This document shows positions 19,493-45,043 of a stretch of 49,227 nt of DNA, piece after piece. The translations under genes were made by a program, and so were the position numbers. Location: contig JAKSBV010000223.1 in assembly GCA_022360955.1 (NCBI GenBank), positions 1 through 49,227 of the forward strand, given 5' to 3'. Source of the DNA: Bacillota bacterium (GTDB lineage Bacteria; Bacillota; Clostridia; SK-Y3). Every line of letters starts with the position of its first letter. Within the stretch, counting starts at the first letter, position 1. The notes below the pieces were generated by a model. That model saw only the letters and a list, made by a program, of their open reading frames with translations, made no database searches and had not been told where the DNA came from.

Positions 19493-19561
19493 TCTGACAA
19501 TCGTCTCCCAATTAAATTTTTATATATTAGAGAGACCGTTAATGATTAACAGTCGCTCTAA

Positions 19562-19659
19562 GGATAGCCAACTTTAAACCTAAAAATACTATTTGCGCAA
19601 ACAACGACGGTTTTGCGTTGTTTGCGTAAATATAAATTTGATTTTAAAGTTGGATATCT
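19562..19659 (+). repeat. Nested-hairpin element, copy A
   Basis: About 98 bp with terminal inverted repeats GATAGCCAACTTTAAA (19563-19578) and TTTAAAGTTGGATATC (19643-19658). A second inner stem, TTTGCGCAAACAACG against CGTTGTTTGCGTAAA, matches at 14 of 15 positions. It lies inside the locus 2 operon, between the binding-protein and permease genes. Related copies are at 30628, 30697, 36058 and 44925. Confidence 0.85.
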
Positions 19660-19714
19660 ATAATATACGTTTATGTTTAAAAGAGTGGCATATGGATCAC
19701 TATAAAGTTTTATG

Positions 19715-30533: not shown

Positions 30534-30605
30534 TTGAATGGTATGGAAAGAATATTGTGGAAAGGGTCTTAGCCTTGGCACTTCAATTCTTGGAATACCA
30601 TTTAA
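30534..30605. repeat. Long imperfect intergenic hairpin
   Basis: The 19-nt arms at 30534-30552 and 30587-30605 are reverse complements at 15 positions, including AATGGTAT/ATACCATT. They enclose a 34-nt loop. Function unknown. Confidence 0.5.
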
Positions 30606-30627
30606 CGATCACAACACGTAAATTTAT

Positions 30628-30685
30628 AGATATCATACTTTAAAATCGAATATATTTGGACAAAAAACGCAGAACCATCGTTGTT
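30628..30685 (-). repeat. Nested-hairpin element, copy B1 (truncated)
   Basis: Begins AGATATCATACTTTAAAATC and continues with CGCAGAACCATCGTTGTT, matching the first two-thirds of copy C. Similarity is lost about 12 bp before copy B2 starts, so its other end is missing. Confidence 0.75.
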
Positions 30686-30696
30686 CTGGGTATTAT

Positions 30697-30792
30697 GGAT
30701 ATCGCACTTTAAGATTGAATTGATATTTAAACAAAAAACGAAAGACCCTCGTTGTTTGTTTAAATGTATGTAGATGTAAATTGCGCTATCTT
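30697..30792 (-). repeat. Nested-hairpin element, copy B2 (diverged)
   Basis: A full-length but diverged copy in the same orientation as B1. It has left end GGATATC-ACTTTAAGATT, centre CTCGTTGTTTGTTTAAAT, and right end TTGCGCTATCTTT. It forms a head-to-tail pair with B1. Confidence 0.7.
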
Positions 30793-30897
30793 TATCCAAT
30801 CCATAGCCGTTCAAAAGACGTTTTAAAAAAATAGAATGTATTGGTCATTGGACATTCGTAAAAAATGAGTAATGTATTTTTTAAAACGCCCTTATCC

Positions 30898-30926
30898 GAA
30901 TGTATTTTTAGGTTTAAAGTGTACTA
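30898..30926 (+). promoter_or_regulatory. Candidate sigma-G type promoter of the germination operon
   Basis: GAATG (30898-30902) fits the forespore -35 pattern GHATR. TGTACTA (30920-30926), 17 bp downstream, matches five of seven positions of CATACTA. It lies 32 bp before the first gene. Germinant receptor operons are normally forespore-expressed, which is why this site was sought, so the call is weak. Confidence 0.35.
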
Positions 30927-30957
30927 TCTTTACCGTTACCGGGGAGGAGTGAATACT

Positions 30958-36012: not shown

Positions 36013-36057
36013 CACATGATCCCCCTTTATTGATTTTTTCCGCTGTTCTTGTATAAT

Positions 36058-36154
36058 AGATATCCAACTTTAAAATCAAATTTATATTTACACAAAAGAC
36101 GCAGAGCCATCGTTGTTTGTGTAAATCATTTTTTTAAGTTGCAGTTGGCTATCT
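36058..36154 (-). repeat. Nested-hairpin element, copy C
   Basis: 97 bp from AGATATCCAACTTTAAA to GTTGGCTATCT, with inner arms TTTACACAAAAGACG and CGTTGTTTGTGTAAA. Read on the minus strand, its apical loop matches copy D closely. Reading out toward hemerythrin it carries TTGATT, followed by TATTAT at the border, a possible outward promoter with short 15-bp spacing. Confidence 0.85.
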
Positions 36155-36244
36155 TAAGTATATCATATTTCCCTCTTATCCGATAAGCCTTTTCTCTATT
36201 CTTTCCATCATTCAAACATCTTTTTGGCACATCAAAAACAACTC

Positions 36245-44397: not shown

Positions 44398-45043
44398 TCA
44401 CAACTACCTCCAATAACACTTTTCTTTCATTATACACCTTTTTATACGTTCGAAAACAAAAAATGTCTGCCAAAAGTTTAAAACTTTACCTCACTCTTTT
44501 TAGAAAAATTGTCGAAAAAACAGACTTATAGGTACCGAACGTTACAATTGGATTGATACATCCATAAAAACCCAGCTCTCTGACATGCTGTCAGCACATT
44601 ATAAACCATCATCACAACCCTGGTGGTAAACTGGAGACCTCAGCATTGGATTGGGCTGCTTGTGAACAAGTTTGCTAATGATTACTATATTTTTCTTGTG
44701 ATTCTGATTGACGCCAAAAAATAGTAAAAGTCAAACATTTTACTATTTGACATACGCCAATATGTAACATAATATATAATCAATAGCAATATTTAAAAAA
44801 TATAAATGTAAAGCTGCATTTCATCAAAAATGAAAACATCACATTAATTCAAAAATATGGTATATTAAGCGGTAATATTGTATATTTTTTAATAAAATTT
44901 AATTTTAAATAAAAAATTTATTAAAGATAACCAACTTTAAACCCAAAAATATTATTTACACAAACAACGATGACTCTGCGTTTTTTGTGTAAATATAAAT
45001 GCCATTTTAGAGTTGGGTATCTACAAAAGGAGGAAATTAGTTT
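44398..45043. other. 646-bp AT-rich divergent gene-free region
   Basis: Contains a minus-strand TATAAT (44434-44429) likely serving the adaptor gene, a perfect CTGACA/TGTCAG palindrome with a 3-nt centre (44580-44594), and nested-hairpin copy D (44925-45022). Between about 44540 and 44730 short frames look faintly protein-like but lack starts and change frame, so this could be decayed coding DNA. Confidence 0.6.
44925..45022 (+). repeat. Nested-hairpin element, copy D
   Basis: 98 bp from AGATAACCAACTTTAAA to GAGTTGGGTATCT, with inner arms TTTACACAAACAACG and CGTTTTTTGTGTAAA matching at 14 of 15. It ends 3 bp before the AAAGGAGG ribosome site of the symporter, so it is almost certainly part of that mRNA leader. 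Confidence 0.88.

Follow-up and report, generated by a model that had tools for sequence, protein, structure and literature searches.

A high-copy 100-bp palindromic repeat family in a Clostridia genome is very probably an IS630-type MITE

The palindromic repeats found in the window (i.e. the whole stretch of 49,227 nucleotides analysed here) very probably constitute a family of non-autonomous MITEs of the IS630/Tc1-mariner type, whose hairpin shape is better accounted for by movement and copying than by an RNA function; judged from the sequences, an IS630 element would, with similarly high confidence, be what moves them in trans. The first-pass annotation had proposed a MITE moved in trans, and this is upheld by the terminal repeats, the TA duplication, a nested insertion for which uninterrupted paralogues exist, intergenic copies in the hundreds, and ends that match those of an IS630 partly in the same genome and exactly in MITEs of the relative SKW182. 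The family is a new one of a known kind, a RUP-like IS630 MITE for which the exact mobiliser of the subfamily is not yet seen. This IS630-type MITE family is undescribed and restricted to its lineage, and comes with a likely mobiliser and with a sister genome in which cognate ends match exactly; its novelty beyond this lies in an orientation bias and a record of template switching.

Results

Copies in the window

Copies A and D lie on the forward strand and copies B2 and C on the opposite strand. Copy A (19561-19660), a 100-bp element of subfamily I, is flanked by TA at 19559-19560 and 19661-19662; its inner arm is restored (pair C44-G62) and its G39-C67 pair is compensated. Copy C (36057-36155) has a degenerate target, with AA on either side. 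Copy D (44924-45023) is preceded by TA at 44922-44923 and followed by a degenerate right TA (CA), with a ribosome-binding site and ATG (45044) directly downstream of its right end. Its left terminal inverted repeat, AGATAACCAACTTTAAACCC, spans 44925-44944 on the forward strand, its right terminal inverted repeat spans 45006-45022 on the reverse strand (reverse complement AGATACCCAACTCTAAA), and the inner hairpin between them (44954-44994, forward strand) comprises arms ATTTACACAAACAACG / CGTTTTTTGTGTAAAT and loop ATGACTCTG. The positions originally given for A, B2, C and D were right to 1-3 bp, and the element, described as about 97 bp long, is real, although the unit measures 100 bp between TA dinucleotides. 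The common terminal repeat GATAxCCAACTTTAAA likewise denotes a genuine repeat family, but not all of it, as the B2 ends carry CGCAC, not CCAAC, and belong to an older subfamily.

Copy B2 (30696-30792, subfamily II ends GATATCGCAC) is nested in B1 and flanked by a target duplication, TA at 30694-30695 and 30793-30794. B1 (30625-30932, reverse strand) is a long form of the family element, 203 bp in length, interrupted by B2, so that its own sequence consists of 30625-30695 and 30795-30932. When joined, these two flanks align over their whole length with paralogues free of an insertion at other loci (L035, L220, L033 and L046), indicating that B2 inserted at a TA and duplicated it; excision of B2 with one TA gives back the uninterrupted sequence known from those loci. 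B1 had been called truncated, which does not hold, since its flanks rejoin into an uninterrupted 203-bp variant. A separate palindrome, AATGGTATGGAAAGAATA...TTCTTGGAATACCATT, lies at 30537-30606, just upstream of B1, and resembles the interior of a second, 215-262-bp MITE family of this genome.

The full copies fold end to end, as had been suggested, with z = -7.9, -5.0, -4.8 and -7.3 relative to dinucleotide shuffles. Rfam covariance models gave 0 matches above the gathering score over the window, and around copy D no promoter or terminator site scored above shuffles and no terminator-like site was called.

Architecture, subfamilies and abundance

The family unit is 100 bp long, below the limit of about 300 bp that applies to MITEs, with terminal inverted repeats of 16-17 bp enclosing an inner hairpin with 15-bp arms, and its target is TA. 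The consensus reads A-AGATAACCAACTTTAAACCTAAAAATACTATTTACACAAACAACGATGATTCTGCGTTTTTTGTGTAAATATAAATTCAATTTTAAAGTTGGGTATCT-A between the two TA dinucleotides, has 24% G+C and is non-coding (stops in 5 of 6 frames, no gene-like ORF), in agreement with the earlier remark that a coding frame is lacking. Intact TA flanks both ends in 116 of 173 full copies, and within the terminal repeats it is the outermost 5 bp that change least on the tree. Successive subfamilies occur in the genome, the CGCAC-ended one (including B2) being the older. Eleven consensus columns separate the two main subfamilies: eight form four compensated or wobble pairs, two make up the mismatched pair 9/96, which turns from A.G into G.A, and one belongs to the loop. 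Across 161 copies, the 9/96 mismatch within the terminal repeats is A.G or G.A in 73 and 30, and C-G paired in 18. Nine copies with common non-TA flanks (C192:31471, C108:14131, C435:21036, C240:11110, C335:160, C452:31449, C351:28415, and one each on C465 and C103) seem to be carried inside a larger repeat.

The 4.64 Mb assembly (522 contigs) contains 499 matches to the terminal-repeat pattern, as against 6 for a reversed control. A covariance model built from 51 copies returned 149 matches among the 150 candidates scored, one of them a 39-bp fragment, whilst an HMM search of 1.15 Mb located 215 places, of which 173 hold full-length copies. Sixty contigs picked regardless of hits carry 62 copies per Mb and seven long contigs about 118, from which the genome total is probably 290-550 copies, at least 148 of them full or near-full; many copies per genome had been predicted, and the covariance-model search confirms this. 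The statistics cover about one third of the genome, in a sample enriched for good copies. Copies in tandem, divergent and convergent gaps number 95:23:11, against 136.5:35.9:17.5 kb available, i.e. in proportion to bases. Most copies are several substitutions apart, and 14 pairs differ by no more than two.

A candidate mobiliser and relatives in other genomes

One IS630-family transposase was seen in the genome, on contig C400, flanked by two MITE copies. It carries DDE_3 and IS630-type helix-turn-helix domains (PF13358, PF13592, PF13565), and NF033545 matches it in three pieces that span positions 4-291 of 299, each below the whole-protein cut-off. The element is decayed, with an in-frame TAA plus a frameshift. 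Its relative in SKW182 changes frame at the identical position, so that programmed frameshifting is probably the origin of the frame change, whereas the TAA would represent decay. The frame change falls in the same A-rich stretch (ESFKKNGYP / KKMAIL) at L032 2316-3489 and L114 3898-5121, the copies being about 70% identical.

A search for a transposase with matching terminal repeats had been proposed, and the match is partial: the ends of this IS630 (TAAAGATAACCAAAACC / TATAGATAACCAAAATGG) and those of the MITE (TAAAGATAACCAACTTTAAA / TATAGATACCCAACTTTAAA) agree over the outer 13-14 bp only, including an A/T difference after TA, and in this genome the exact IS630 ends are found only on MITEs of about 215-262 bp. 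No autonomous element with exact GATAACCAACTTTAAACCT ends was present in the 1.46 Mb of genome read; because the assembly is in 522 contigs, IS copies may have been collapsed or lost. The 215-262-bp MITEs (L094 942-1160, L095 1044-1305, L096 892-1110, with pieces in L271, C435, C217 and C487) combine one interior with two end types, the exact IS630 end AGATAACCAAAACC and AGATAACGCACTGTAAAGTT, which suggests that interiors may swap ends as transposases turn over.

A scan for close relatives in a species-genome collection identified IS630 elements in Clostridia bacterium SKW182 (69% amino acid identity) and UBA4821. The SKW182 IS630 has unequal ends, TATAGATAACGAAGTGTAAA / TATAGATAACGAACTGTAAA (left GAAGTGTAAA, right GAACTGTAAA); precisely these two ends recur on some 20 hairpin MITEs in that genome, each about 100 bp long. 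These MITEs resemble the window's family in length, end-to-end hairpin, TA target and ends of the same IS630 subgroup; they differ in having GAAGTGTAAA/GAACTGTAAA in place of CCAACTTTAAA, an unrelated interior and an exact cognate IS630. A further SKW182 element (L116, 1501-1605) has the ends of the window's family and a different interior, and two elements in G260, a Clostridia genome from a different family, have the older GCGCAC/CACAC-type ends, again around a different interior, indicating that ends are kept whilst interiors are replaced. In such elements of other Clostridia genomes (L116, L272 and L273, each at 1501-1605), about 25 bp of both asymmetric family ends are retained around an unrelated interior.

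Close IS630 relatives were absent outside the own genome from the order (7 genomes) and from 391 genomes of the class, and a plasmid search yielded only distant Deinococcus IS630 with about 33% identity. In viral contigs the end pattern matched twice on its own; neither match has a right end paired with it inside 130 bases, and both were judged to be chance. Palindromes of about 57 bp in two genomes of the same family (G002 and G003; L082-L092), of form AATTAACCAACTTTAAAACTAAATATTTAGTTTTAAAGTTGGTTAATT with a conserved right flank TTTCATCGATAACTACATTAATTTA, have AACCAACTTTAAA in common with the window's family and seem to be a different repeat.

Covariation of the arms and the loop

Double changes that keep pairing and fall on the same branch number 22 in the inner arms, against 4.2 expected and a maximum of 11 in 500 permutations, and 3 in the outer arms, against 2.4 expected. 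The corresponding pair-state counts are 30 (inner) and 5 (outer), compared with 1-7, counted over all pairs, for pairings slid by 1-3 columns. Many of the inner-arm double changes fall on branches with just 2-4 changes overall, and in copy C148 two places became paired on one branch (A39C/T67G and G57T), as though one arm had served as the template for its partner. The tree, built from 104 columns, is poorly resolved, and intermediates may be hidden in some of these single-step double changes. Template switching during replication gives such a pattern of arm copying (PMC8794818), and since the double changes come about in one step along short branches we consider, with moderate confidence, that it would explain the inner-arm coupling better than selection on RNA. 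No convincing case of loop inversion, the strongest footprint of template switching, was found among the copies. Compensatory changes in the arms had been named as the test of RNA selection: they are indeed present in the inner arms, but their occurrence in single steps favours a mechanism at the level of DNA.

The loop, by contrast with its earlier description as conserved and hence indicative of an RNA-level function, is the least conserved part of the interior, with 12.9 terminal-branch substitutions per site, the highest among regions of more than two sites (outermost terminal repeat, 4.8), and accordingly offers no support for an RNA role. The loops look alike because the copies are young, in keeping with recent spread, the other source of likeness that had been put forward. 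In the inner arm, changes to wobble pairs outnumber those to A-C (86:58, nominal p = 0.024), as against 67:63 in the outer arm, and the excess is not significant when limited to terminal branches; this signal is weak and ambiguous, and a transcription-linked C-to-T bias could yield it too. Covariation in high-copy palindromes is no proof of RNA function, and with hundreds of copies per genome these MITEs would serve as a natural archive of template switching between arms in bacteria.

Orientation bias

Copies between co-directional genes point with the genes in a ratio of 87:40 (p = 4e-5), or 61:30 (p = 0.0015) once duplicated flanks and repeated gaps are removed, in counts that rest on crudely called ORFs and on a sample enriched for good copies; the bias is robust to ORF cut-offs of 80, 100 and 150 aa. 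An unbiased extra sample gave 4:3 and is too small. The strand in the favoured orientation folds worse than its complement (-27.3 vs -28.9 kcal/mol, p = 1e-4), a result that would point to removal of reverse insertions by selection more than to a beneficial RNA. On the reverse strand of the consensus, a T-rich stretch, AGTATTTTTA, lies 3' of the inner hairpin. Copies surviving in the opposite orientation lie no further from the gene downstream (median 67 vs 116 bp).

Discussion

In the mechanism that we propose, an IS630-family transposase acting in trans would bind both terminal repeats (TA-W-RGATANCNNACTTTAAA), excise the element and join it into a TA, which would be duplicated. The outer arms would be alike because one transposase has to recognise both ends, and insertions would persist chiefly between genes, in random intergenic space. 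The inner hairpin would be replicated as a DNA palindrome in which template switching repeatedly copies one arm onto the other, generating compensatory-looking double changes and repairing mismatches without selection on RNA.

Several other accounts of the family were weighed against this one. That the copies act as structured RNA (in mRNA stability, as an RNase III site or in attenuation), with pairing kept by selection on the RNA, would be in line with the covarying inner arms, the favoured orientation between co-directional genes (61:30 after de-duplication) and the inner-arm wobble excess; we nonetheless regard it as quite improbable, given that the loop is the fastest-changing multi-site region, that the favoured strand is the poorer folder, that the wobble excess is absent from the outer arm and not significant on terminal branches, that double changes arise in single steps, that Rfam has no match, and that other genomes keep the ends whilst swapping the interior for unrelated sequence. 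Domestication by the host, as regulatory or chromosome-organising repeats now immobile, would accommodate the decay of the sole IS630 seen and the distance of several substitutions between most copies, but is very unlikely in view of the pairs only 1-2 substitutions apart, the insertions that track available intergenic bases and the presence of successive subfamilies. REP/BIME-type palindromes, spread by a RAYT (IS200/IS605-like) transposase, share with the family their high copy number and intergenic position; the chance that this applies here is negligible, as a 100-bp element with terminal inverted repeats, a TA target duplication, ends matching IS630 and a consensus that has neither a GTAG nor a CGTC head is not of that type, and the target duplication and IS630 ends already refute it.

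The IS630-type MITE reading, with its transposition and template switching, does not account for the 2:1 orientation bias. This may be supplemented by purging of reverse insertions between co-transcribed genes, where the more stable hairpin would disturb transcripts, a tentative but plausible addition: it fits the de-duplicated ratio, the better folding of the reverse strand and the T-rich stretch after its inner hairpin, and is opposed by the lack of a called terminator-like site around copy D, by survivors in the opposite orientation that lie no further from the downstream gene and by an unbiased extra sample that is too small. It is unlikely that the copies exert an orientation-dependent transcript effect on their neighbours and that the inner hairpin is kept jointly by template switching and selection. 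If true, hundreds of operons would contain a mobile element whose RNA hairpin acts directionally and in cis, one orientation being retained in about two thirds of the copies between co-directional genes. The bias itself constitutes a testable lead on the effects of small repeats in operons.

A literature string search for the terminal repeat gave 8 hits, of which not one dealt with bacterial repeats. Among the nearest known systems, compared by description, is RUP of Streptococcus pneumoniae, an AT-rich element of 107 bp with about 110 copies per genome that is linked to IS630-Spn1, follows the strand bias of coding sequences, with 60.9% lying on the leading strand, clusters with and inserts into other small repeats and is over-represented between convergent genes (PMC3049150). 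RUP and the window's family are alike in being about 100 bp long and AT-rich, with an extensive predicted transcript fold and with terminal repeats that resemble, here over the outer 13-14 bp, those of an IS630 in the same genome; they differ in host and in the convergent-gap excess, which the window's family does not have. Nezha of cyanobacteria and Correia of Neisseria, also compared by description, are bacterial MITEs too, and Correia occurs in high copy near genes, with its terminal repeats cleaved by RNase III in transcripts (PMC10969869); both differ in host and sequence. REP/BIME palindromes with RAYT are likewise intergenic and of high copy number, but measure 20-40 bp and are mostly GTAG- or CGTC-tagged (PMC3733652, PMC2817692) and make no target duplication, whereas the window's family is 100 bp long, duplicates TA, has IS630 ends and bears no such tag.
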